Source: Xanthomonas sontii
GTDB lineage: Bacteria > Pseudomonadota > Gammaproteobacteria > Xanthomonadales > Xanthomonadaceae
Assembly (NCBI RefSeq): GCF_040529055.1
Contig: NZ_CP132342.1
Location: 1,300,001 to 1,364,000, forward strand
Direction: 5' to 3'
Length of the DNA stretch: 64,000 nucleotides
The position numbers were made by a program, and so were the translations under genes. Below, piece by piece: positions 51,278 to 64,000 of this stretch (position 1 is its first letter; every line of letters starts with the position of its first letter). The notes under the pieces were generated by a model, which saw only the letters and a program-made list of their open reading frames with translations, made no database searches and was not told where the DNA came from.

Positions 51278-51575
<298 letters not shown>

Positions 51576-51642: not shown

Positions 51643-52566
51643 TCATGCACCTGCGATGACAGGAGGAGCGTACGGGGCCTGATCGCGCGCGATGGCATTG
51701 AGCCAGCGCAGGAACTTGTGCATGCAGGCGACGATGGCGACCTTGGCCGGCTTGCCCGCTGCGCGCAGACGTGCGTAGGTGTTGGCCAAGGGGGATTTGG
51801 CGCGGATGCTGGCCCAGGTGGCCATGTACAGCACGCGCCGCACGTCGGCACGTCCACCTTTGATGCGGCGCTGGCCTTTCCAGCAACCGCTGTCGTGATT
51901 GAACGGGGCCAGCCCGACCAAGGCAGCGAGCTTGCGTGGCGGCAGCGTGCCCAGCTCTGGCAGCCGCGCGGCCAGAACCGCGCGCAGGATCGTCCCGAGC
52001 CCAGGCACCTTGGGTAGGCTCGAGCAGGTCTTGCCCTGCTGCTCGATCTCCTGCGTCAACGTCTGGATCTGCTGGTTCAGCAGGGCGATCACCTCTCGGC
52101 AGCGGTGTTGCGCCTTGGCGCTGGTAATGTGTTCCAAGCGCCGCCGATGGGCATCGCGCTGGCCCACCAGGGTGGCACGCAGGTCCAGCAGTTCGCGAAG
52201 AGACTGCTGGTGCCCGGGCACCACGGGCGTGGGGGTGGTCGGGATGTGCTGGGCGGCGATGGCCAGCAGGCGCGCGTCCAGGGCATCGGTCTTGGCATGC
52301 AGGCCCAAGGCCTGGGCGAGCTTGCGCGGACGATCGGCGGCCATCCGCACTGCCGGCAGGTCCGCCTCTCGGAGCACCTGCAGCACGGCATGTTCGTAGC
52401 CGCCACTGGCTTCCAGCACGATCCGCTCGCAGTCCATCCCAGCCAGACGTTGGGCCAGCGCACGCTGCCCCTGTGGCGTATTGGGCTGGGTCCAGGCCTG
52501 CTCGTCCGGCAGGACATGAATGACCAGCTCAGCCTTGGATACATCGATCCCGACATGGCGCCGCAT
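51643..52566 (-). CDS. IS110-family transposase (DEDD recombinase)
   Basis: The 307-aa protein has the IS110 architecture. An N-terminal RuvC-like DEDD domain has Asp8 (GIDVSKAEL), Glu52 (VLEASGGYE), Asp94 and Asp97 (KTDALDARL). A helical linker follows (about 125-180), and the C-terminal Tnp domain has the catalytic serine at about Ser226 (APFNHDSGCWKG). IS110 enzymes use a structured bridge RNA to choose target and donor DNA. All key residues are present, so the protein looks active. ATG 52566 has GGAG eight bases upstream. Confidence 0.93.
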   Translation of the reverse strand: MRRHVGIDVSKAELVIHVLPDEQAWTQPNTPQGQRALAQRLAGMDCERIVLEASGGYEHAVLQVLREADLPAVRMAADRPRKLAQALGLHAKTDALDARLLAIAAQHIPTTPTPVVPGHQQSLRELLDLRATLVGQRDAHRRRLEHITSAKAQHRCREVIALLNQQIQTLTQEIEQQGKTCSSLPKVPGLGTILRAVLAARLPELGTLPPRKLAALVGLAPFNHDSGCWKGQRRIKGGRADVRRVLYMATWASIRAKSPLANTYARLRAAGKPAKVAIVACMHKFLRWLNAIARDQAPYAPPVIAGA

Positions 52567-52816
52567 AGACGTTCTCCGCAGTAGACTCATGGACGAGAGC
52601 GCTCCTGCCGATGCCCATGCTTGTGGAGTTCGAGCTCGTCACTCGGGCAACTGTTCGGGCTTGTCAGGCAGGAGAACCGGAGTGCGGCGGCGCTGACTCC
52701 TACTCGTGCTTGCTGGCACTGCGGCTAAACGGCCTGCCGCACTCCGCTCTCACCTACAACGATAGACCCTTATTTGACACAAGCGGCTTACGCCACGACA
52801 TGCATGACCGATTACG
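52567..52816 (-). ncRNA. Candidate bridge RNA region of the IS110 element
   Basis: These 250 bases upstream of the transposase hold no gene and contain many self-complementary words (for example AGTGCGGCGG/CCTGCCGCACTCCG and GAGTTCGAGCTC). In the IS110 group the bridge RNA is encoded in the long non-coding end upstream of the recombinase gene. Here that end is long and the other end short, fitting the IS110 rather than the IS1111 arrangement. Position and layout are the only evidence; target-binding and donor-binding loops were not identified. Confidence 0.4.
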
Positions 52817-52865: not shown

Positions 52866-53160
52866 GCTTGAAGCAACAGCAAAGGCTTTCGCCCTTTCGG
52901 GCGAGTTACTTTGATCAGCCTTCGGCTGCTGAGAAGCGCTTCTTTGCTCGCGCAAAGAAAAGGTAACCAAAAGAAAGCGCGCCCTGCCTACGCGCCCTCC
53001 GCGCTGCGCGCTCCGGGTCCGCGAACCAGGCGGGATCCGCGGAAGGGGCATCCTGCCCCTGCCGCGGACGGCGCACGTCCATGTGCGCCGCCCTTCGGGT
53101 TTTTCCCGCCTGGTTCGCCGCTTCGGAAGGGAACCCGGTAAGTCAAAAGCAACAGCAAAA
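52866..53160. repeat. Right arm of the inverted repeat flanking the IS110 element
   Basis: This is the inverted counterpart of 51311-51575 (see that entry for shared blocks). It differs by an extra self-complementary segment (GATCAGCCTTCGGCTGCTGA, about 52913-52932). It differs also by AACCAGGCGGGA in place of GCCGGCCCGGGG next to the shared GGGTTCCCTTCCGAAGCGGC block. The region down to the LacI gene has no coding potential. Confidence 0.8.
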
Positions 53161-53232
53161 GCCACAGCCACAGCAACAGCAACAGCCACAGCCACAGCAA
53201 AGGCAACGACAACGGCAACGGCAACGGCAAAA
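53152..53232. repeat. Degenerate CAACGG/CAACAG hexanucleotide tract
   Basis: Runs of CAACAG, CCACAG and CAACGG units form an A/C-rich strand of about 80 bp. They are the reverse-complement relative of the GTTGCC tract at the other end of the repeat pair, with more sequence drift. Confidence 0.8.
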
Positions 53233-53318: not shown

Positions 53319-54407
53319 TTAGCGAACCAGCGAAGGCCGCAACACCGAATCGCGCGCGACCAATCGATGCGGCACCACATGATCGACATAGGCGCGCTCG
53401 GAACCAGCCCCTTGCCGGATCTCCCGCAACAACAGATCGATGGCCGCATCGGTCATGTCCGCCACCGGTTGATGGATGGTCGTCAGCTCCGGCCACACCA
53501 TCGTCGACGCCGACGTGTCGTCGAATCCCACCACCGACAGATCCTGCGGCACCTTCAGGCGGCGACGATGCGCCACCGACACCACCGCCGAGGCCATGTC
53601 GTCGTTGCTCGCGAAAATCGCACTGGGGCGTGCCCGCAACGCCAACAGTCGCTCGGCGGCCTCGAGTCCGGCGCGATAGGTGAAGTCGCCCGGCTGCACG
53701 AGCGCGGCGTCGTAGTCGATGCCCGCATCCGCCAGGGCATCGCGGTAACCCTGCCAGCGGTGCGCACTGGCGGTCTGGTTCGGGTCGCCGGTGATGTAGC
53801 CGATGCGCGTATGCCCGTGCGCGATCAGGTGCGAGACCATGTCATGGCTGGCGCGGCGGTCGTCGATGTGCACGCAGGACAGCCTGTCGCTGAACCGGCT
53901 CGACGCAATGGAGACGACGGGAATGCCGGCGTCGACGAACACGGCGACGATGGCTTTCGATTCGCACAAGGGCGCGGGGAGAATCACCCCTGCCACGCTG
54001 CTGCAGAGCGTGCGTGCGGCCTCGCGGCGTGCCCGCGGACCCAGTCCGTCCCACGTGGCGATCACCAGTTGCGCCGCCACGCGGGTCGAACCACGCAGCG
54101 CGCCGACCAGCAGTTCGCGCAGATAGCTGGAGCTGGGATTGGTATAGATCAACGCGATGCAGGTGCGCTGCGCGGCGGCGAGCGCGCTGGCGGCCGGGTT
54201 GGGCCGGTAGTCCAGCGCGCGCACGCTGTGCGTCACTCGCTCGCGCGTGCTCTCGCGCACGCCGGCGTGACCGTGGGTGACGCGCGAGACGGTCATCGGC
54301 GAGACGCCCGCATGCGCCGCGACGTCGTCGATGGTGATGGCGTTCCCTCTTCGACGCGTCGTTTTGGGGGTGTTCTTCAAGGAATGCAGTCCTTTGTTGC
54401 GACGCAT
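53319..54407 (-). CDS. LacI-family transcriptional regulator of the xylose locus
   Basis: The 362-aa repressor has an N-terminal helix-turn-helix (TIDDVAAHAGVSPMTVSRV, residues 24-44) and a periplasmic-binding-protein-like sensor domain ending in QDLSVVGFDDTSAS and TTIHQPVADMTDAAIDLL. It is divergent from the TonB receptor genes and precedes xylB and xylA, so a XylR-like role is likely. A perfect palindrome TGATAGCGCTATCA lies 46 bases upstream, suggesting autoregulation. ATG 54407 (MRRNKGLHSLK) is used; the open frame continues back to 54467, inside the operator. Confidence 0.88.
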   Translation of the reverse strand: MRRNKGLHSLKNTPKTTRRRGNAITIDDVAAHAGVSPMTVSRVTHGHAGVRESTRERVTHSVRALDYRPNPAASALAAAQRTCIALIYTNPSSSYLRELLVGALRGSTRVAAQLVIATWDGLGPRARREAARTLCSSVAGVILPAPLCESKAIVAVFVDAGIPVVSIASSRFSDRLSCVHIDDRRASHDMVSHLIAHGHTRIGYITGDPNQTASAHRWQGYRDALADAGIDYDAALVQPGDFTYRAGLEAAERLLALRARPSAIFASNDDMASAVVSVAHRRRLKVPQDLSVVGFDDTSASTMVWPELTTIHQPVADMTDAAIDLLLREIRQGAGSERAYVDHVVPHRLVARDSVLRPSLVR

Positions 54408-54452
54408 GATGACAAGCGATGTCCCGGGTGCGTAGTCTGCGCCGTGACGCGA

Positions 54453-54466
54453 TGATAGCGCTATCA
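54453..54466. promoter_or_regulatory. Perfect 14-bp operator palindrome TGATAGCGCTATCA
   Basis: This palindrome lies between the divergent LacI gene and the TonB receptor gene. It resembles the reported xyl-box of Xanthomonas XylR (TGGTAGCGCTAACA, recalled from memory) and the site at 61276-61289. Binding of the adjacent LacI protein is inferred. Confidence 0.75.
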
Positions 54467-54652
54467 ATCAGCGGCAGTCGGGCTCGGGGGGAGCCTTTAT
54501 CGCGCGTCGTCTGGCAATCCTGAAACGGAGTTTTGAGTCGCAGCGACCGCAGAGCGCGCTGCGATGTTCGGCGTGGAAGACGGGCATCGCCCGTGCGTGC
54601 CTCTTAGGGGAGGGGCGGTACATCCATCGATCGCATGTCAGAGGGGAGAGTC

Positions 54653-54703
54653 ATGAGCGCTTCTATGTTTCGTCGTAGCCCAGACCTGGGGGCTCGTCCA
54701 TGA
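54653..54703 (+). CDS. 16-codon leader ORF overlapping the TonB receptor start
   Basis: ATG 54653 follows a strong GGGGAGAG ribosome site and encodes MSASMFRRSPDLGARP. Its TGA overlaps the receptor ATG (ATGA). It may couple translation of the receptor, or be a chance reading. The receptor's own weaker GGGGG site at 54688-54692 could also be used. Confidence 0.4.
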   Translation: MSASMFRRSPDLGARP

Positions 54704-57700
54704 GCCGCACGCTGGCGAAGTTCAAATCCAGGGCCATGTTCACCTTCGTCGGTGGCGTCCTGGTCATCAATCCCGCATTCGCACAGGACGCGTCGACGCC
54801 CGCGCCGGCGGCAGAGCAACAGGCGCAGAGCAGCCCGACGCAGCTGGACACGGTCCAGGTCACCGGCCTGCGCAACAGCCTCAGCCAGGCGATGGACATC
54901 AAGCGCGACGCCGCGGGCGTGGTGGATGCCATCAGTGCCGAAGACATCGGCAAGTTCCCCGATACCAACCTGGCCGAGTCGCTGCAGCGCATCACCGGTA
55001 TCTCCATCGAACGGCGCGATGGCGAAGGCGCGCAGGTCACCGCGCGCGGCTTCGGCCCGCAGTTCAACATGGTGACGCTCAACGGGCGGCAGATGCCGGG
55101 CGCCGATGCGTTCGGCGCTGCCGGCCAGGTCGCCATCGGCGGCGTCGATGGCGGTACCCGCGCCTTCAACTTCGCCCAGCTCGCCGCCGAGGCGATCAAT
55201 GGCATCGAGGTCTACAAGACCAGCCAGGCCAACATGCCCAGCGGCGGCATCGGCGCCACCATCAACATCCTGACCGCGCGCCCGTTCGACCACCAGGGCA
55301 TCGTCGCCAGTGCCGGCGCCAAGGCCGTCTCCGACCGCAGCCAGCCGTTCGACAACGACATCACCCCGGAACTGTCGGGCATCTTCAGCTACAGCAATCC
55401 GGACAAGACCTTCGGCGTCGGCGTGAGCGCGAGCTACCAGAAGCGCAAGGGCGGCTCGGTGCAGGCCACCGAGAACTATTGGAACGTGCAGCCGTGGACG
55501 GGCTCGATGCCCGGCAATCCGACCGTGGTCAATGCGCCGCAGATCGGCGCGCTGTACGCCCGCCCGAACGACCTGCGCTATGCGTTCTCCGAGTTCGAAC
55601 GCGAGCGCGTCAACGGCCAGGCGGTGCTGCAGTTCGCACCCACCGACAGCCTGACGCTGACCCTGGACTACACCTACTCGACCAACGAGATCACCGAGAA
55701 TCGTGGCGAGCAGGGCATGTGGCTGCAGAACAGCAACTACACCGATGTGACGTTCGATACCAGCGGCGCGGTGGCCGTGCCGACCTACATCCGCGAGATC
55801 GCCGGCACCAAGGATTTCGGCCTTGAGCAGCAGCGCAGCATGCAGAAGTACAAGCTGGGCTCGCTCGGTCTGAATGCGGTGTGGAACGTGACCGACCGGC
55901 TCAAGCTCAGCTTCGACGCGCACGACTCGAAGAACGAAAGCCGTCCGAACGATCCGCTGACCGGTGGCGGCTCCCTCTTCATGAGCATCGCCGGCACCAA
56001 CAACTGCACCACCGGGCCGCACTGCGGCGGCTCCTGGGTGCAGGAGCTGAACTTCAACAATGGCCTGCCGATCGGCACCCAGGTCTGGTATCCGAGCGAC
56101 GCCGCTGCCGCGGCCAAGGCCAATGGCGTGGTCAATCCGGGCTTCGTGCCCGGCGAGATCGGTTCGCAGGTGCTGCGGGTCAACTCGCAGAGCCAGATCA
56201 GCCAGATCAAGCAGGCGCGCGTCGACGGGGAATGGAGCTTCGACCAGGGCCGCTTCCAGTTCGGCGTGGACACCAACAAGTCGACCACCCACCGCATCCA
56301 GGCCGCCGAGGCGTACTCCACGCTGGGCGACTGGGGCGTGGCCAACGTCGATCGGGATACCGCCGGCGGCCTGATGAACCTGATGCAGCCGGTCAACATC
56401 ATCGGCCTGTTCCATGACTACGGCGGGACGAGTTGGCCGGCATGGCGCGGCGATGCGGGCCGGCTGGCGGAATGGGCGGCCAGCCAGTACGGCGTCGGCC
56501 TGGGCGTGAGCCCGCAGCGCGCCGCCGACAACTTCGTGGAGGAGAAGACCCGCTCGGCGTACTTCCAGGTGGAACTGGATGGCGAGCTGGCCGGTCGGCG
56601 CACCAATACACGGCTTGGCGTGCGCTACGAAACCACCGACGTGGTGTCGACCTCGATCATCGCCACGCCCGAGGCGATCGAGTGGCAGTCCAACAACGAC
56701 TTCCGCGTGGTGCTGTCCAACGAGCAGCAGCCGTTCAGCGAGAAGACCACGTACAGCTACATCCTGCCCAACCTGGATTTCAGCATCGACCTCACCGATA
56801 CGCTGAAAGGCCGCGTCTCCTTCGGCAAGAGCATCGCGCGCGCGCCGATCGGCAATCTGTATGCCGGCCCCGGGGCGCAGCAGCCGTTCGGCTCGGTGCT
56901 GATCGATCCGTCCTCGCGGGCCAGCGGCAACGCGCAGAATCCGTCGCTGAAGCCGCTGGAGTCCGACAACCTCGACCTGGCGCTGGAGTGGTACTTCGCC
57001 GATGCGAGCTACCTGTCGGTGACGTACTGGAACAAGTCGGTCAACAACTTCATCGGCAACACCGTCGTGCAGGAGAATCTGTACGGCCTGCGCGATCCCA
57101 CCTCGGGTCCGGACGCGAAGTCGGCGCTGGCGTTCCTCACCAGCGGCGCTTGTCTGGCCCAGGTCGGCCCGGCCAATGCGGCGGCCTGCTCGGCCAACGA
57201 CACCTCGCTGTTCACCGCGCTGGCCCTGCTGCGCAACAACCCGGCCGGCCTGGCCGCCTACAACGGCACCGGTGCGCAGGTGCTGGCGACCGAAGCGGCC
57301 TACGATCTCTACGGCGAGGCCGACGATCCGCTGTACGAGTTCAACGTCAACCGTCCGATCAACCAGAACCAGGCCAAGCTGCACGGCTGGGAGCTCGGCG
57401 GGCAGTACTTCCTCGGCGACACCGGGTTCGGCATCCTCGCCAACTACACCATCGTCAAGGGCGACGTCGGCTACGACAACGGTGGCGACCCGGGCATCGA
57501 CCAGTTCGCGCTCACCGGCCTGAGCGACACCGCCAACGCGGTGCTGATGTACGAGAAGTACGGCTGGTCGGTGCGCCTGGCCTGGAACTGGCGCGACCAG
57601 TACCTGATCCTGGCCAACCAGGGTACCAGCCGCAATCCGTACTATGTGGAACCCTACGAACAGTGGGATCTCAGCGTGAACTACACGTTGAACGATCACT

Positions 57701-57831
57701 GGTCGTTCGGGCTGGAGGCGATCAACCTGACCGGCGAGGACGTACGCTGGCGCTCGCGCACCTCGAAGATGATCGTGAAGCTGGCCGACCAGAGCCCGCG
57801 TTATATGCTGGGCGTTCGCTATAAGTTCTGA
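54700..57831 (+). CDS. TonB-dependent outer membrane receptor
   Basis: This 1043-aa protein has a signal peptide (cleavage near NPAFAQ), a plug domain (about residues 50-170: DAISAEDIGKFPDTNLAES, TARGFGPQFNMVTLNGRQMP) and a beta-barrel ending in YMLGVRYKF. The style of plug and barrel is that of the large Caulobacter/Xanthomonas receptors used for uptake of plant oligosaccharides. Its place beside a LacI regulator and xylose genes suggests import of xylo-oligosaccharides or a xyloside. It is the first gene of a run with SapC, cupin and halogenase genes. Confidence 0.93.
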   Translation: MSRTLAKFKSRAMFTFVGGVLVINPAFAQDASTPAPAAEQQAQSSPTQLDTVQVTGLRNSLSQAMDIKRDAAGVVDAISAEDIGKFPDTNLAESLQRITGISIERRDGEGAQVTARGFGPQFNMVTLNGRQMPGADAFGAAGQVAIGGVDGGTRAFNFAQLAAEAINGIEVYKTSQANMPSGGIGATINILTARPFDHQGIVASAGAKAVSDRSQPFDNDITPELSGIFSYSNPDKTFGVGVSASYQKRKGGSVQATENYWNVQPWTGSMPGNPTVVNAPQIGALYARPNDLRYAFSEFERERVNGQAVLQFAPTDSLTLTLDYTYSTNEITENRGEQGMWLQNSNYTDVTFDTSGAVAVPTYIREIAGTKDFGLEQQRSMQKYKLGSLGLNAVWNVTDRLKLSFDAHDSKNESRPNDPLTGGGSLFMSIAGTNNCTTGPHCGGSWVQELNFNNGLPIGTQVWYPSDAAAAAKANGVVNPGFVPGEIGSQVLRVNSQSQISQIKQARVDGEWSFDQGRFQFGVDTNKSTTHRIQAAEAYSTLGDWGVANVDRDTAGGLMNLMQPVNIIGLFHDYGGTSWPAWRGDAGRLAEWAASQYGVGLGVSPQRAADNFVEEKTRSAYFQVELDGELAGRRTNTRLGVRYETTDVVSTSIIATPEAIEWQSNNDFRVVLSNEQQPFSEKTTYSYILPNLDFSIDLTDTLKGRVSFGKSIARAPIGNLYAGPGAQQPFGSVLIDPSSRASGNAQNPSLKPLESDNLDLALEWYFADASYLSVTYWNKSVNNFIGNTVVQENLYGLRDPTSGPDAKSALAFLTSGACLAQVGPANAAACSANDTSLFTALALLRNNPAGLAAYNGTGAQVLATEAAYDLYGEADDPLYEFNVNRPINQNQAKLHGWELGGQYFLGDTGFGILANYTIVKGDVGYDNGGDPGIDQFALTGLSDTANAVLMYEKYGWSVRLAWNWRDQYLILANQGTSRNPYYVEPYEQWDLSVNYTLNDHWSFGLEAINLTGEDVRWRSRTSKMIVKLADQSPRYMLGVRYKF

Positions 57832-57926
57832 ACAAGGCGGAGAGGTTCTCTTCGCATGTCGCCACGGGCGCCGCTGCGATTGCGGCGGCGCCCCGTGCCG
57901 GACTCCAGAGGGGAGTGCGCACCACC

Positions 57927-58685
57927 ATGCCGCGTTACGAGATGCTCAACAACATCGCCCATCGCGACCTGCGCGTGGCCACCGACTTCGGTCCGGAGTT
58001 CGGCGACGCGGTGGGGATGGTGCCGGCCTACCCCAGCGAGTACGCCGAGCTGCAGCGGGAATATCCGATCTTCCTGCGCAAGGATCCGGCGGACGGCGCC
58101 TGGCAGTCGGTGGTGCTGCTGGGGTTCGAGCAGCACGAGAACCTGTTCCTGCAGGAGCGGCGCTGGACGGCCTCCTATCTCCCTGGGGCGGCGGCCAAGG
58201 GGCCGTTCCTGATCGGCTTCCAGGAGCAGCGCATCGACGGCGTGCTGACCCAGGACGCGGTGCTGCACGTGGACATGGAGCATCCGCGGGTGACGGCGCT
58301 GCAGGGCGAGCCGGTGTTTCTGCCGCAGGGCGGCAACACGCCCTATCTCGACCACATCGCCGGCGTGCTGCGCGGTATCCACGAAGGCCATGCATTCGGC
58401 GCGGAGATGTTCGCCGCGCTCGATGCACACGGCTTGATCCAGCCGGTGGCGCTCGACGTGCAGCTCGATGCGCAGCACCGCGTCGGCGTGAACGGCCTGC
58501 ACGCGATCGACCGTGAGCGCCTGGCCCAACTGGACGGCGCCGCGCTGGCCGCGCTCAACCGCGCCGGCTATCTGGAAGGCGCGTACCTGATGCTGGCCTC
58601 GCTGCACAACATGCGCCGCCTGATCGCCGAGAAGCAGCGGCGCCTGCGCCTGCAGGATGCCGCCGGCGCGGCAGGCAGGAACTGA
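57927..58685 (+). CDS. SapC-family protein
   Basis: The 252-aa soluble protein matches the SapC family by its start (MPRYEMLNNIAHRDLRVAT) and by QSVVLLGFEQHENLFL. The name comes from a Campylobacter surface-layer locus, but in Xanthomonadaceae and alteromonads such genes sit beside TonB receptors and halogenases, with no known biochemical function. ATG 57927 is chosen over GTG 57915 because the AGGGGAG site fits it better. The gap to the cupin gene is 2 bp. Confidence 0.85.
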   Translation: MPRYEMLNNIAHRDLRVATDFGPEFGDAVGMVPAYPSEYAELQREYPIFLRKDPADGAWQSVVLLGFEQHENLFLQERRWTASYLPGAAAKGPFLIGFQEQRIDGVLTQDAVLHVDMEHPRVTALQGEPVFLPQGGNTPYLDHIAGVLRGIHEGHAFGAEMFAALDAHGLIQPVALDVQLDAQHRVGVNGLHAIDRERLAQLDGAALAALNRAGYLEGAYLMLASLHNMRRLIAEKQRRLRLQDAAGAAGRN

Positions 58686-58687
58686 GC

Positions 58688-59707
58688 GTGCCGGACGGCG
58701 CAGCCATGCGGACACTGGAGGGCGTGCAGCCCACCGCGCTGCCACTGCAGGACCTGGTGGCGGCCGGGGAGCCGGTGGTGTTGCGCGGCATCGCGCGCGA
58801 CTGGGGACTTGTCCAGGCCGGCTTGCGCTCCACGCAGGACGCCCTGTCCTACCTGCGCGGCTTCGATACGGGCGTGCCTGTTCCATATTCCTTCGGCGAG
58901 CCCGGGATCGAAGGACGCCCGTTCTACAACGCCGACTTCACCGCGTTGAATTTCGAGGTCCGCCGCGGAACGCTCACGCAGGTGCTGGAGGCGATCGCCG
59001 CGACCTTCGAGGATCCGCGGCCGCCCACGTACTATGTCGCGTCGCTGCCGATCGAGCGGGCGCTGCCCGGCTTCGCCCAGGCCAACGACGCCGGCCTGGC
59101 CGGGCAGGGCGTCGATGCGCCGCCGAGCATCTGGATCGGCAACCGGGTGACGGCGTCCTGTCATTTCGACACGCCGGACAACCTGGCCTGCTGTGCGGTG
59201 GGCCGGCGCCACGTCACCCTGTTTCCGCCCGAGCAGATCGACAACCTGTATCCGGGGCCGCTGGAGCCGACGCCGGGCGGCCAGGTGGTCAGCGTGGTCG
59301 ATGTCGACCGCCCCGACTTCGCGCGCTATCCGCGTTTCCGCGATGCGCTGGCCAGCGCACGGCACGCAGAGCTGGAGCCGGGCGATGCGCTGTTCATCCC
59401 CAGCATGTGGTGGCACCACGTACGCAGCCTCGCGCCGTTCAACGTGCTGGTGAACTACTGGTGGCGCAGTGCGCCGGCGTTCCTGCCCTCGCCGCTGACG
59501 GCGTTGCAGCACGCGATGTGGGCGTTGCGCGATCTGCCGGCGCGCGAGAAGCAGGCCTGGGCCAAGCTCTTCGACTACTACGTGTTCGGCCCCGGCGAAC
59601 GCGCAGGCCAGCACCTGCCCGAGGCCGCCCGGGGCGAACTGGCCCCGTTCGACGAGGCACGGGCACGCCGCACGCGCGCGCAGCTGTTGGCGCGGCTCAA
59701 CCGTTGA
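58688..59707 (+). CDS. Cupin-like (JmjC-type) Fe(II)/2-oxoglutarate oxygenase homologue
   Basis: The 339-aa protein has a JmjC-like cupin fold with a likely iron triad His159, Asp161 (ASCHFDTPDN) and a His at 243-244 (SMWWHHVRS), the HxD...H pattern of 2-oxoglutarate oxygenases. Such proteins hydroxylate proteins or small molecules. GTG 58688 is used because AGGAA lies eight bases upstream; ATG 58706 is an alternative. It lies 2 bp after SapC and 13 bp before the halogenase, so it is surely cotranscribed. Confidence 0.85.
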   Translation: MPDGAAMRTLEGVQPTALPLQDLVAAGEPVVLRGIARDWGLVQAGLRSTQDALSYLRGFDTGVPVPYSFGEPGIEGRPFYNADFTALNFEVRRGTLTQVLEAIAATFEDPRPPTYYVASLPIERALPGFAQANDAGLAGQGVDAPPSIWIGNRVTASCHFDTPDNLACCAVGRRHVTLFPPEQIDNLYPGPLEPTPGGQVVSVVDVDRPDFARYPRFRDALASARHAELEPGDALFIPSMWWHHVRSLAPFNVLVNYWWRSAPAFLPSPLTALQHAMWALRDLPAREKQAWAKLFDYYVFGPGERAGQHLPEAARGELAPFDEARARRTRAQLLARLNR

Positions 59708-59720
59708 TGGGGACTTTGTC

Positions 59721-61250
59721 GTGAACCTAGCCAACACCACGGACGGACGCATCCGCAAGGTCGTCATCGCCGGCGGCGGCACCGCGGGCTGGCTGGCCGG
59801 CTGCGCGCTGGCCCACCAGTTCCGCGATCGCCTGGACATCACCCTGGTGGAGTCCGAGCAGATCGGCACCGTGGGCGTCGGCGAGTCGACCGTGCCGCCG
59901 ATCCGCGCCTTCCACCGCTTTTTGCAGATCGACGAACAGGAATTCCTGCGCGCCGTCGCCGGCACGTTCAAGCTGTCGATCTCGTTCGAACATTGGCGCC
60001 GCCCCGGCGATCGCTTCATCCATCCGTTCGGCACGATCGGGCAGGGCACCTGGGCCACGCCGTTCCATCATTTCTGGCTGGACAGCCTGCGCCGCGGCAT
60101 GCCGTCGGACCTGGGCGATTTCTGCCTGGAGAGCGTGGCCTCGCGTGCGGACCGGTTCTCGCTGGAGACGCAACCGCAGGTCAACTACGCCTATCACTTC
60201 GATGCCGCGCTCTACGCGAAGTTCCTGCGCAAGAAGGCCGAAGGGTACGGCCTGTGCCGGGTCGAGGGACAGATCCGCGAGGTCCGGCAACATGCGCACG
60301 ACGGCTCGGTCGCGGCGCTGCTGCTGGAAGACGGGCAGCTCATCGAGGGCGATCTGTTCATCGACTGCACCGGATTCCGCGGCCTGCTGACCGAGCAGAC
60401 CCTGCACACCGGCTACGAAGACTGGCGCGAATGGTTGCCCAGCGATCGCGCCGTGGCGGTGCAGACCGAGGCGGTCGCGCCGCCGGTGCCGTATACCCGT
60501 GCCATCGCGCACGAGGCTGGGTGGCGTTGGCATATCGCCCTGCAGCACCGGGTCGGGTGCGGGTTGGTGTTCTCCAGCCGGCACATGTCCGACGACGAGG
60601 CGCACGCCAAGCTGCTGCGCGACGTCGACGGCCCGCCGCTGCGCGACCCGTGGCTGGTGCCGTTTCGCAGCGGGCGCAGGCTGCAGGCCTGGAACAGGAA
60701 CGTGGTGGCGCTGGGCCTGGCCAGCGGCTTCATCGAGCCGCTGGAATCGACCAGCATCCACCTGACCATCAGTGCGGTGGTGCGCCTGATCCAGCTGTTT
60801 CCCCACGAGGGCATCAGCCCGGCGCTGGTGGAGCTGTACAACACGGTCAGCCGCCAGGAGATGGAGCACGTGCGCGATTTCATCATCCTGCACTACCACG
60901 CCACCCAGCGCGACGAGCCGATGTGGAAAGCCTGCCGCGAAATGGCGCTGCCGGAGTCGCTGGCGATTCGGCTGCGCGCCTGGCGCGAACGGGCGCACGC
61001 CTGGCAGGGCCCGGGCGAGTTGTTCCGCGTGGACTCCTGGACCAGCGTGTTGCTGGGGCAGGGCATCCAGCCGGGACCGCCGCATCCGCTGGCCGCCGCC
61101 ATCGGCGACGCGGATCTGCGCACGCTGCTGACGCGGATCCGGCAGCCGCTGCAGCAGGCCAGCGCGGCGATGCCGTCGCAGGCGGAGTTCATCGAACGCT
61201 ATTGCAAGGCGTCGCCCGAGGTCTGGCAACGGAGCAGTTCCCTGGCGTAA
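59721..61250 (+). CDS. Flavin-dependent tryptophan-halogenase family protein
   Basis: The 509-aa protein has the FAD-binding motif GGGTAGW (18-24) and GVGESTVPP (52-60). The lysine equivalent to the catalytic Lys79 of PrnA is at about Lys84 (GTFKLSISF). The halogenase WxWxI motif is at Trp268-Trp270 (GWRWHIALQHR), and the late EPLEST box is at 339-344. It could halogenate an aromatic or sugar-linked substrate, but many members of this TonB-linked branch have no proven activity, and a flavin reductase is not encoded nearby. GTG 59721 has a good ATGGGGA site. Confidence 0.9.
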   Translation: MNLANTTDGRIRKVVIAGGGTAGWLAGCALAHQFRDRLDITLVESEQIGTVGVGESTVPPIRAFHRFLQIDEQEFLRAVAGTFKLSISFEHWRRPGDRFIHPFGTIGQGTWATPFHHFWLDSLRRGMPSDLGDFCLESVASRADRFSLETQPQVNYAYHFDAALYAKFLRKKAEGYGLCRVEGQIREVRQHAHDGSVAALLLEDGQLIEGDLFIDCTGFRGLLTEQTLHTGYEDWREWLPSDRAVAVQTEAVAPPVPYTRAIAHEAGWRWHIALQHRVGCGLVFSSRHMSDDEAHAKLLRDVDGPPLRDPWLVPFRSGRRLQAWNRNVVALGLASGFIEPLESTSIHLTISAVVRLIQLFPHEGISPALVELYNTVSRQEMEHVRDFIILHYHATQRDEPMWKACREMALPESLAIRLRAWRERAHAWQGPGELFRVDSWTSVLLGQGIQPGPPHPLAAAIGDADLRTLLTRIRQPLQQASAAMPSQAEFIERYCKASPEVWQRSSSLA

Positions 61251-61275
61251 CGGCACCCACGCTGTCGTCCAAAAA

Positions 61276-61289
61276 TGATAGCGCTAACG
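61276..61289. promoter_or_regulatory. LacI-type operator before xylB
   Basis: TGATAGCGCTAACG shares its first 11 bases and its twelfth-position A-for-T variant with the palindrome at 54453-54466, and differs from the recalled Xanthomonas xyl-box (TGGTAGCGCTAACA) at two positions. It lies 16 bp before the xylB start, so a bound repressor would block transcription of xylB and xylA. Confidence 0.7.
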
Positions 61290-61304
61290 AAAAGGCGGTA
61301 CGAC

Positions 61305-62807
61305 GTGGAAGAAAGGGAACTGGTAGCCGGAATCGATGCGGGGACGCAGAGCCTGAAGGTCGTGGTCTACGACCCGGTCGGGCGCAGCGTCGTGGCCAGC
61401 AGCAGTGCGCCGCTGGAGTTGCATTCCGCCGCCGATGGCAGCCGTGAACAACATCCGGCCGACTGGGTCGCGGCCCTGCAGGTCTGCTTCCACGCCATCG
61501 ATCCTGCGCTGCGCTCGCGCCTCGCCGCGCTGGCGGTCTCCGGCCAGCAGCATGGCTTCGTGCCGGTCGATGCGGCAGGCGAGGTGCTGGCACCGGCCAA
61601 GCTGTGGTGCGACACCAGCACCTCGGCCGAGTGCGTGCAGATCATGGACGCGCTCGGCGGCGCGGCGCGCACCATCGCGCTGGCGGGCAATCCGATCCTC
61701 ACCGGTTACACAGCCTCCAAGCTGCCGTGGACCAAGACGCACCGGCCCGAGGCCTATGCGCGGCTCGCCACGATCCTGCTGCCGCACGACTACCTCAACT
61801 TCGTGCTGACCGGCCAGCGCTTCTGCGAGTACGGCGACGCCTCGGGCACGGGCTGGCTGGACGTGCGCACGCGCACCTGGTCGACCGAGCTGTTGCGCGC
61901 CACCGATCCGCAGCGCGATCTGGCGGCTTGCCTGCCGCGTTTCGCCGCGCCCGATGCCTTGTTCGACATCGACCCCGCCGCCGCGCACATGTTCGGTCTG
62001 CCGGCGACGCTGAAGGTCGCCGTCGGCGGCGGCGACAACATGATGGCGGCCATCGGCACCGGCTGCGTCGTGCCCGGCCGCCTGGCGATGAGTCTGGGCA
62101 CCTCCGGCACCCTGTTCGCCTACTCCGACACGCCGGTGGTCGACCCGGACGGTGCGTGGGCCGCGTTCTGCTCCTCCACCGGCGGCTGGTTGCCGCTGAT
62201 CTGCACGATGAACTGCACCGTGGCGACCGAGCAGGTCGCCGCCGCGTTCGGCTTCAGCACACGCGACGGCGATGCGCATCTGCACGCCACCGCGCCCGGT
62301 GCCGACGGCCTGGTGATGCTGCCGTTCCTCAATGGCGAGCGCACGCCGGACCTGCCGTTGGGCAAGGGCCTGCTGGCGGGCCTGGACACGCACAACATGA
62401 CCCCGGCCCACCTCTATCGCGCGGCGATGGAAGGGGCGACCTACAGCCTGAAGTACGGCTTCGACGCGTTCGTGCGTGCCGGCATGCAGTTCGAGCGCAT
62501 CGTGCTGACCGGCGGCGGCAGCAACAGCGGCGCGTGGCGGCAGCTGGTGGCCGATGTGTTCGGCCTGCCGGTGGACGTGCCCACGCAGCCGGAAGGCGCG
62601 GCGTTCGGTGCGGCCTTGCAGGCGCTGTGGGCCGTGGGCCTGGCACGCGGCGATGCCGCTTCCATTGCCGACATCGCGCAACAGCATGTGGCGGTCGATC
62701 CGCAGCTGTCCGCCCGTCCGGATCCGGCGCGCACCCAGGCCTATGCCGCGGCCTATGCACGCTTCCTGCGCCACCTCGACGCCTGCCTGCCGCTGTTCCG
62801 CGGCTGA
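61305..62807 (+). CDS. xylB: Xylulokinase
   Basis: The 500-aa FGGY-family kinase phosphorylates D-xylulose with ATP. The first beta-strand loop is [15 protein letters not shown], the active-site region is [15 protein letters not shown], and [20 protein letters not shown] is conserved. GTG 61305 with AAGGCGG upstream is preferred; an ATG at 61275 would add ten residues and overlap the operator. xylA follows after 44 bp, giving the xylose-to-xylulose-5-phosphate route. Confidence 0.93.
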
Positions 62808-62851
62808 TTGCCCGTTTCGCACGCCCTCCCACCACGACAGGAACCCGCACC

Positions 62852-64000
62852 ATGCACACTCAGCCCTTCATCGGCGCCAAGGAATATTTCTCCGGTATCG
62901 GCCGCATCCCCTTCGAAGGCCGCGGCTCGGACAACCCGCTGGCCTTCAAGGTCTACGACGCCAACAAGGTCGTCGGCGGAAAGACCATGCAGGACCATCT
63001 GCGCTTCGCAGTCTGCTACTGGCACACCTTCTGCAACGCCGGGCAGGATCCGTTCGGCCCGGGCACGCGCCATTTCCCGTGGGAGGTCGGTGCGCCGCTG
63101 GCCAGCGCCGAGGCGAAAGTGGATGCGGCGTTCGAGTTCTTCACCAAGCTCGGCGTGCCGTACTGGTGCTTCCACGACATCGACCTGGCGCCGGACGCTG
63201 ACGATGCCGGGCAGTACGAGAAGAACCTCAAGCACATGGTGGGCCTGGCCAAGGCGCGCCAGGACGCGACCGGCATGAAGCTGCTGTGGGGCACGGCGAA
63301 TCTGTTCTCGCATCCGCGCTACATGAACGGTGCCGCGACCAATCCCGATTTCGCCGTGGTGGCGCGCGCCGCCGTGCAGGTCAAGGCGGCGCTGGAAGCG
63401 ACGGTGGAACTGGGCGGCGAGCATTACGTGTTCTGGGGCGGCCGCGAAGGCTATGCCTCGCTGGTCAACACGCAGATGAAACGCGAACTCGAGCACTTCG
63501 CGCGCTTCCTCACCATGGCGCGCGACTACGGCCGCAGCATTGGCCTGAAGGGCAACTTCCTGATCGAGCCCAAGCCGATGGAGCCGATGAAGCACCAGTA
63601 CGACTTCGACAGCGCGACGGTGGCGGGCTTCCTGAAGCAGCACGGCCTGGACAAGGACTTCAAGCTCAACATCGAGGCCAACCACGCCACGCTGTCCGGC
63701 CACACCTTCGAGCACGACCTGCAGGTCGCCTCCGACCACGGCCTGCTGGGCAGCATCGACGCCAACCGCGGCAATGCGCAGAACGGCTGGGATACCGACC
63801 AGTTCCCGACCGACCTGTACGACACCGTGGGCGCCATGCTGGTGGTGCTGCGCCAGGGCGGCCTGGAGGGCGGCCTGAACTTCGACGCCAAGGTGCGCCG
63901 CGAGTCTACCGAGCTGGAGGATCTGTTCATCGCCCACATCGGTGGCATGGACGCGTTCGCCCGCGGGCTGGAAGTCGCCCATGCGTTGCTCAACGATTCG
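62852..64000 (+). CDS. xylA: Xylose isomerase (3' end beyond the window)
   Basis: The first 383 residues are present; the family length is about 440. Active-site segments are [13 protein letters not shown], the metal ligands in [16 protein letters not shown] and [18 protein letters not shown], and SIDANRGN. It converts D-xylose to D-xylulose, the substrate of XylB. ATG 62852 has AGGAA upstream. Expressed with xylB under the operator at 61276. Confidence 0.97.

Follow-up and report, generated by a model that had tools for sequence, protein, structure and literature searches.

The closest described system to the locus reported here is the xylan regulon of Xanthomonas, which consists of loci for carbohydrate utilization with TonB-dependent receptors (CUT) under the repressor XylR and is known from the xytA, xylR, xytB, and xylE loci. 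We compare it with part of a 64,000-nucleotide stretch of DNA from the plant-associated bacterium Xanthomonas sontii, hereafter the window, which spans positions 1,300,001 to 1,364,000 of a genome of one contig (5.02 Mb). The described regulon and the window share a TonB receptor, a LacI-type repressor, the xyl-box operator, and a controlled xylA. In the species described, the regulon is spread over four separate main loci (PMC3826837). XylR represses genes that carry a xyl-box, and xylose relieves the repression (PMC10380989, PMC13282271). The xyl-box of X. campestris is given as TGGTAGCGCTAACA in two articles that quote it from Dejean (PMC7748154, PMC10380989). Xylose, xylan, and arabinose are reported to induce two receptor genes, XCC2828 and XCC4120, each with a palindromic motif in its promoter; the XCC2828 locus has a conserved counterpart in Caulobacter (CC0999), and X. 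campestris and Caulobacter have a partial CUT locus in common (PMC1790865).

The window holds, between the receptor gene and the xylose genes, three genes for unstudied proteins: SapC, a cupin, and a halogenase. Among the closest solved relatives of its halogenase are Xcc4156 and BrvH, a type of enzyme for which structures have been solved and the native substrate is not known (PMC7336383). As reported, Xcc4156 lacks long tryptophan-holding loops, has an open active site, brominates model substrates in vitro, and acts on indoles and not on free tryptophan; its authors suggest larger substrates, possibly peptides (PMC7336383). The word TonB does not occur in the available text of the Xcc4156 and BrvH papers; the window enzyme is a paralogue that sits in a xyl-box cassette. 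The cupin shares the HxD...H iron ligands of the JmjC protein hydroxylases FIH and JMJD5, although it is a bacterial protein, and SapC shares family PF07277 with the SapC of surface-layer systems, from which its name is inherited.

In the window, a LacI gene on the minus strand is followed on the plus strand by genes for the TonB receptor, SapC, the FIH-like cupin, the flavin-dependent halogenase, xylB, and xylA (Table 1). Receptor module, repressor, xylB, and xylA thus lie together, unlike in the described regulon, and the seven genomes with this arrangement each have a single exact xyl-box. The marks of a XylR-type CUT locus are present: a TIGR01782 receptor, a xyl-box in the promoter region, and a XylR of the LacI family. 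We consider the locus best explained, with moderate confidence, as a compact XylR-controlled xylan/xylose CUT locus combined with a receptor accessory module that would modify a peptide or protein. We have little doubt about the regulatory part, that is, XylR-type control of the receptor operon and of xylBA through xyl-boxes. The original prediction had named all seven genes; each lies at its predicted place and strand, with its family confirmed by profile search for all but xylA, and the tight packing also holds, with gaps of 83 bp between receptor and SapC, 2 bp between SapC and cupin, 13 bp between cupin and halogenase, and 24 bp between halogenase and xylB. Two operators were absent from that account.

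Table 1. Coordinates in the window of the genes and operators of the locus.
Feature	Position	Strand	Basis and remarks
XylR-type LacI repressor	53319..54407	-	Pfam LacI PF00356 (56.8 bits) and Peripla_BP_3
xyl-box 1, perfect 14-bp palindrome TGATAGCGCTATCA	54453..54466	.	233 bp 5' of the receptor ATG
TonB-dependent receptor, TIGR01782 (Xanthomonas/Caulobacter type)	54700..57831	+	780 bits, cut-off 310
SapC family protein	57915..58685	+	PF07277, 216 bits
Cupin_8 / FIH-like JmjC oxygenase	58688..59707	+	PF13621, 241 bits; HxD...H
Flavin-dependent halogenase, Xcc4156 type	59721..61250	+	Trp_halogenase PF04820, 619 bits
xyl-box 2, TGATAGCGCTAACG, one mismatch	61276..61289	.	Between halogenase and likely xylB start
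xylB, xylulokinase	61275..62807	+	TIGR01312, 509 bits, cut-off 380
xylA, xylose isomerase	62852..64000	+	Resemblance to relative L034 alone; gene ends at 64186, 186 bases past the window

Both boxes fit the published xyl-box, box 2 with one mismatch to the pattern. Xyl-box 1 is the sole exact copy of the pattern TGNTAGCGCTANCA in the 5.02 Mb genome, and sites with at most one mismatch occur twice in the window against 0.05 expected. Box 1 is placed between the receptor and the likely LacI start. The LacI open reading frame (ORF) as called extends to TTG 54467, but ATG 54407 is the more likely start, because with the TTG the operator would fall inside the gene. Likewise, box 2 overlaps the first ATG of the xylB ORF, and GTG 61305, downstream of the operator, is therefore the likely xylB start. 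A scan near the halogenase end, in which the best site per locus was scored without a control pattern, covered the 25 loci with cassette-adjacent xylB, window included: 22 have box 2 with one mismatch, two with two mismatches, and one (L233) with four, and the site starts 24–30 bp past the halogenase stop in 21 of the 25. The second box before xylB therefore suggests a second, likewise XylR-controlled start rather than a xylose-independent one, and xylBA probably has its own start there. Separate xylose-independent transcripts of the halogenase are not what the operators suggest.

In our model, the regulatory steps of which follow published XylR work, the divergent XylR-type LacI would bind xyl-box 1 before the receptor operon and xyl-box 2 before xylBA, and xylose or xylo-oligosaccharides would free both boxes. 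The receptor would then bring in xylo-oligosaccharides. The FIH-like cupin and the open-site halogenase would modify a peptide or protein, for which the receptor or a partner is the leading candidate, and SapC would serve as adaptor. The window cassette is probably the counterpart of the XCC2828/CC0999 locus, having likewise a palindromic motif and a receptor that would respond to xylose or xylan; neither halogenase nor SapC is mentioned in the available text on that locus (PMC1790865). Of 14 control genomes, Caulobacter vibrioides alone gave a SapC match, and it also has Cupin_8 and halogenase matches.

Relatives were collected in two sets that overlap in some species. The named set consists of the best 80 of 353 loci, ranked by closeness to the query; its closest SapC relatives (94% identity) are from Xanthomonas sp. 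F10 and NCPPB 1128. The sampled set combines 22 other loci of the genus, 57 chosen from an order list, and 60 from the phylum matches listed; with the window's own locus it amounts to 140 SapC loci, after a locus around the xylB of a SapC-less genome (L039) was dropped before counting. A SapC row was taken as a cassette when accompanied by a receptor or halogenase, so that cassettes are selected on those two genes. The box could be scanned for in 135 loci (77 of 80 in the named set and 58 of 59 cassette loci in the sampled set), of which 104 have a close SapC.

The operator is far more constant than the xyl genes. Among the 104 close cassettes, an exact box lies 5' of the receptor in 91, and a box with at most one mismatch in 99; the reversed pattern gave no exact and one one-mismatch site in all 135. 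An exact box is present in 64 of the 76 close cassettes without detected LacI or xyl genes in the stretch. By comparison, xylB, xylA, and LacI were found in 17, 16, and 18 of the 80 named stretches; two loci of Stenotrophomonas rhizophila, L159 and L160, have the cassette together with both xylB and xylA. Removal of duplicates left 121 complete cassettes. Cassettes were labelled as carrying a xyl-box when a site with at most one mismatch lay 3300–3950 nt before the receptor stop, and in a FastTree of the four proteins all 90 labelled cassettes belong to a single clade of 95 members with support 1.0. On this tree the label requires 4 changes, and 20 or more in each of 300 shuffles; for adjacency of xyl genes the figures are 4, and 18 or more. 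Four distant cassettes (L042, L079, L087, and L143) have one-mismatch sites 3243–3263 nt before the receptor stop and were scored as box-less by the distance rule alone, which counts against a clean split of the clade.

The same pattern is seen within the genus. SapC was found in 19 of 20 genomes, and xylB of the window type (92–100% identity) lies beside the cassette in seven, each with a single exact box, at the cassette. The 11 genomes with a cassette and an unlinked xylB have 3–6 exact boxes each, and none was found genome-wide in G005, where SapC and cupin are present without detected receptor or halogenase (L036), or in G019, which lacks SapC; the reversed pattern occurs 0–2 times per genome. 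All 18 genomes with any exact box have one at the cassette, as judged by comparing coordinates by hand. Individual counts are four or five in G080, G192, G602, G603, and G604, six in G008, one in G100 (linked xylB, L084), and zero in G019. In G192, G602, and G604, a further box lies directly 5' of a gene with a XylA-like N-terminus (identified by likeness), and in G015 one box lies ∼40–50 bp 5' of the closest xylB relative. The best match to the window LacI is 61% identical in each of five other genomes. It lies ∼1.4–1.8 kb from another exact box in G192, G602, G603, and G008; in G192 and G602 a XylR-like LacI is ∼1.5–1.7 kb from the xylA-side box; and in G080 the best match lies close to where its contig begins, with 28 kb to the nearest box there. 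This looks like a XylR regulon whose parts are scattered in some species and gathered together in others. Since the linkage comes and goes and the operator stays, the tie to xylose lies in shared regulation more than in gene order. A loss of linkage in relatives, which the original prediction had named as evidence against itself, was seen in part (xylB in 17 of 80 named loci and 7 of 20 genus genomes), and the xylose connection itself stood at the level of the operator (91 of 104 close cassettes; 18 of 18 box-bearing genus genomes).

Two further features of these loci were noted. Where xylB is unlinked, genes for an M19 membrane dipeptidase and a glycerate kinase come after the cassette in several genomes of the genus (for example L028, L030, L032, L037, and L038); the former was found in 9 and the latter in 8 of the 59 cassette loci. 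In G080, a second cassette has two separate halogenase ORFs with an exact xyl-box, oddly placed, between them (G080:C21:484510; L247 1501, L054 12311).

The cassette itself is constant among close relatives: of the 80 named stretches, 78 contain a receptor, 79 a cupin, and 79 a halogenase. In the sampled set, 61 of 142 SapC rows (59 loci) are accompanied by a receptor or halogenase, with 60 receptors, 60 halogenases, and 56 cupins. The other 81 rows have neither and were set apart; lone SapC genes were not accepted as evidence of a cassette. The SapC family, in cassettes or alone, occurs in at least 138 of 398 sampled genomes.

Beyond the close relatives, other operators and other glycans appear. 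Of the 31 more distant cassettes, one has an exact xyl-box and four have a one-mismatch site. A palindrome with an AGCGCT core lies 5' of the receptor in 15 of them, 16 times denser than elsewhere in the loci, and is absent in 16. It resembles the xyl-box in two cases (L042 and L092) and differs in 13 (for example TGTAAGCGCTTACA and TGTCAGCGCTGTCA); these palindromes may bind LacI-family proteins. Neighbours of distant cassettes include glycoside hydrolase (GH) family GH3, a sugar transporter, DUF6445, and S9 and M3 peptidases, with the S9 peptidase at 3 of the 59 cassette loci. We also examined 18 stretches from plasmid records. Halogenase, SapC, and receptor adjoin GH3, a major facilitator superfamily (MFS) transporter, and LacI in one stretch, α- and β-galactosidase in another, and GH2 or GH95 in others. 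Sets that include the cupin lie beside GH16-LacI-MFS-GH3-GH43 and beside GH115-GH43-xylanase. Halogenase and receptor without SapC lie beside GH3 and DUF6445 and beside an α-L-fucosidase, and one receptor-halogenase-SapC set has no glycan hydrolase in its stretch. No halogenase was found by annotation or tblastn in seven stretches (L262, L266, L268, and L270–L273), and in L269 it is 4.6 kb away. A role of the module in xylose use only was rejected on account of the distant copies with other palindromes and the plasmid copies next to other glycan genes. It is very likely that SapC, cupin, and halogenase form a general accessory module for receptors, one that is not tied to xylan.

DUF6445 was seen beside the cassette in 24 of the 80 named loci (L184, L207, and L225 among them), and in L225 also between SapC and cupin; it had no convincing relative in the PDB. 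The window's genome has one SapC, one Cupin_8, and seven halogenase family matches, two of them full length. The other full-length halogenase (G000:C1:676516-677895; L010 8402-9958 and 10038-13148) lies directly 3' of a TonB receptor-like gene, is 50% identical to Xcc4156, and has no SapC or cupin beside it.

Both enzymes of the module look active, judging by the conservation of catalytic residues. The window halogenase has the GxGxxG motif and the catalytic Lys and Glu of a flavin-dependent halogenase (variant A). K84, E339, and E342, which we take to be these catalytic residues, are kept in 135 of 135 rows of the main halogenase class, and the Lys in 23 of 26 rows of a second class. The WxWxIP motif reads WRWHIA in the window, with both W and the I present and P replaced by A; in the main class W, W, and I are found in 135 of 135 rows, and the last position is mostly P (92 rows), otherwise A (36) or S (7). 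Loops that close over tryptophan, as in free-tryptophan halogenases, were not seen in the alignment, where the window enzyme shows two one-residue gaps relative to loop-less Xcc4156. The closest solved relatives are Xcc4156 (6y1w, 539 bits), BrvH (6frl, 437 bits), and also 9luq. A receptor-SapC-cupin-halogenase cassette in G192 (L053) has a halogenase that shares 90% identity with Xcc4156 over 487 residues, and because of this identity the crystallized orphan most likely belongs to a sister of the module described here. In the cupins, H159 and D161 are found in 134 of 137 rows (three are gapped) and H243 in all 137; these are presumably the HxD...H iron ligands. The best sequence match in the PDB is FIH (75 bits), which is a protein hydroxylase. 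For SapC, neither the PDB nor a second Pfam family offered a convincing relative: one PDB chain matched at E 0.13 and none by profile, and the best match to another Pfam family had E 0.0049, in 3 of 78 members. The SapC start is probably ATG 57927, which suits the relatives better than GTG 57915.

The likeness to FIH, the open-site halogenase, and the independence from any one glycan are our reasons to propose, tentatively, that cupin and halogenase carry out a sugar-induced modification of a peptide or protein. Trp conservation in receptors with and without a halogenase, our most direct sequence comparison on this point, gave a mixed picture: position W341 holds Trp in 30 of the 31 cassette receptors compared, which are a quarter of the 121, in 8 of 10 halogenase-linked plasmid receptors, and in 2 of 8 halogenase-less ones, in a weak alignment of the loops; in the same alignment, other Trp columns do not separate the halogenase-linked from the halogenase-less sets. 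A bolder version, which we put forward as speculation and hold to be rather doubtful, is a widespread sugar-inducible system of post-translational modification for TonB receptors: a SapC-guided FIH-like hydroxylase and halogenase would act on the new receptor or a peptide partner and tune glycan uptake, with the same unit used in different sugar regulons.

Several results weigh against this account. No export signal was seen by eye in SapC, cupin, or halogenase (a predictor was not used), which means that they would have to reach the receptor before it is exported. In the weak loop alignment, a receptor without a halogenase within 6 kb retains 6 of 7 Trp residues, and the other halogenase-linked receptor of the window's own genome is gapped at most Trp columns, W341 included. 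Parts of the module can drop out: 5 of the 61 cassette rows have no detected cupin, and some receptors travel with a halogenase but without SapC or cupin, in the window's genome and on plasmids. The stretch around one complete plasmid cassette has arsenic and type VI secretion genes but no glycan gene. As to regulation, a promoter and terminator scan found no sigma-70-like promoters in the region (0.7 in shuffles), and one-mismatch sites are fewer genome-wide than those of the reversed control (3 versus 16). We therefore rejected such sites as genome-wide evidence, and box 2 counts by its place and conservation, not by rarity.

Three alternatives concern the target of the enzymes. According to the first, the substrate of halogenase and cupin is a small aromatic imported along with the glycan, such as ferulate, coumarate, or a lignin-derived phenol, which they detoxify or tag in the cytoplasm. 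Xylan bears ferulate-type aromatic groups, and one plasmid cassette accompanies GH115, GH43, and xylanase. Relatives of the halogenase also act on free indole and indole derivatives (PMC7336383). Against this, halogenase-receptor sets are found with galactosidases, GH95, GH16, GH2, and GH3 as well, and distant cassettes with the S9 peptidase. To our knowledge, ferulate is not to be expected at any of these loci. The original prediction had suggested an aromatic group of xylan such as ferulate as a substrate; as a general substrate it is weakened, because the module also adjoins other-glycan and S9 peptidase genes, and we hold this alternative unlikely.

Equally improbable, in our view, is a loss of halogenation, which would leave a flavin monooxygenase or maturase acting on protein Trp in the manner of LodB and QhpG, enzymes that act on protein Trp in cofactor biogenesis. 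The window halogenase does match the NCBIfam profiles of QhpG (27.7 bits, cut-off 240) and LodB (20.9 bits, cut-off 400) weakly, and the Pro of WxWxIP is replaced by Ala in 37 of 162 aligned halogenases, window included. However, the Lys and Glu are kept throughout the main class, and Xcc4156, from the sister cassette, brominates its model substrates (PMC7336383).

Halogenases usually serve specialized metabolism, and the module could instead make a small halogenated metabolite for signalling or protection when a glycan is sensed, the neighbouring receptor being merely co-regulated. That halogenases can travel without SapC or cupin agrees with this. On the other hand, clustering of neighbours, judged by eye, gave no biosynthetic gene family that recurs with most cassettes, and receptor and SapC distances are correlated (r 0.963, 121 cassettes), a weak point because all four genes are inherited together; we give this alternative no better prospects than the two before it. 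A chance gathering of unrelated genes beside the xyl genes is extremely improbable and was rejected: xylB is adjacent in just 7 of 20 genus genomes, but the four-gene block occurs in nearly all 80 named loci (receptor, cupin, and halogenase in 78, 79, and 79) and has a shared operator.

The XylR regulon is already known. Our searches of open-licence full texts gave no description of the receptor-SapC-cupin-halogenase set, and within the reach of those searches three results are new: the operator tracks the cassette across rearrangements, the same module occurs under other palindromes, and Xcc4156 is placed in such a module. For halogenases of the Xcc4156/BrvH type, sugar-regulated TonB receptor modules indicate an inducer, partner proteins, and a candidate substrate. 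If the receptor or a peptide is indeed the target, many Pseudomonadota that feed on glycans would control nutrient uptake in a new way.

Other features of the window and its relatives are as follows. Past the window end, 3' of xylA, lie a GH3-like gene and a second LacI gene whose product is 62% identical to the first. To the left of the LacI gene, an IS110-family transposase gene (51643-52590) is flanked by inverted-repeat arms (51279-51440 and 53032-53230) with repeats of 41–93 nt that are 77–90% complementary and include a hexamer tract. The locus L036, set apart among the lone SapC genes, has retained a cupin and resembles a cassette that has decayed. Members of a second SapC class (∼25–32% identity) have neither a receptor nor a halogenase with them, and dxs and an HNH endonuclease gene are frequent neighbours (L057–L064, L066, L069, L071–L074, L076, L080, L081, and others).

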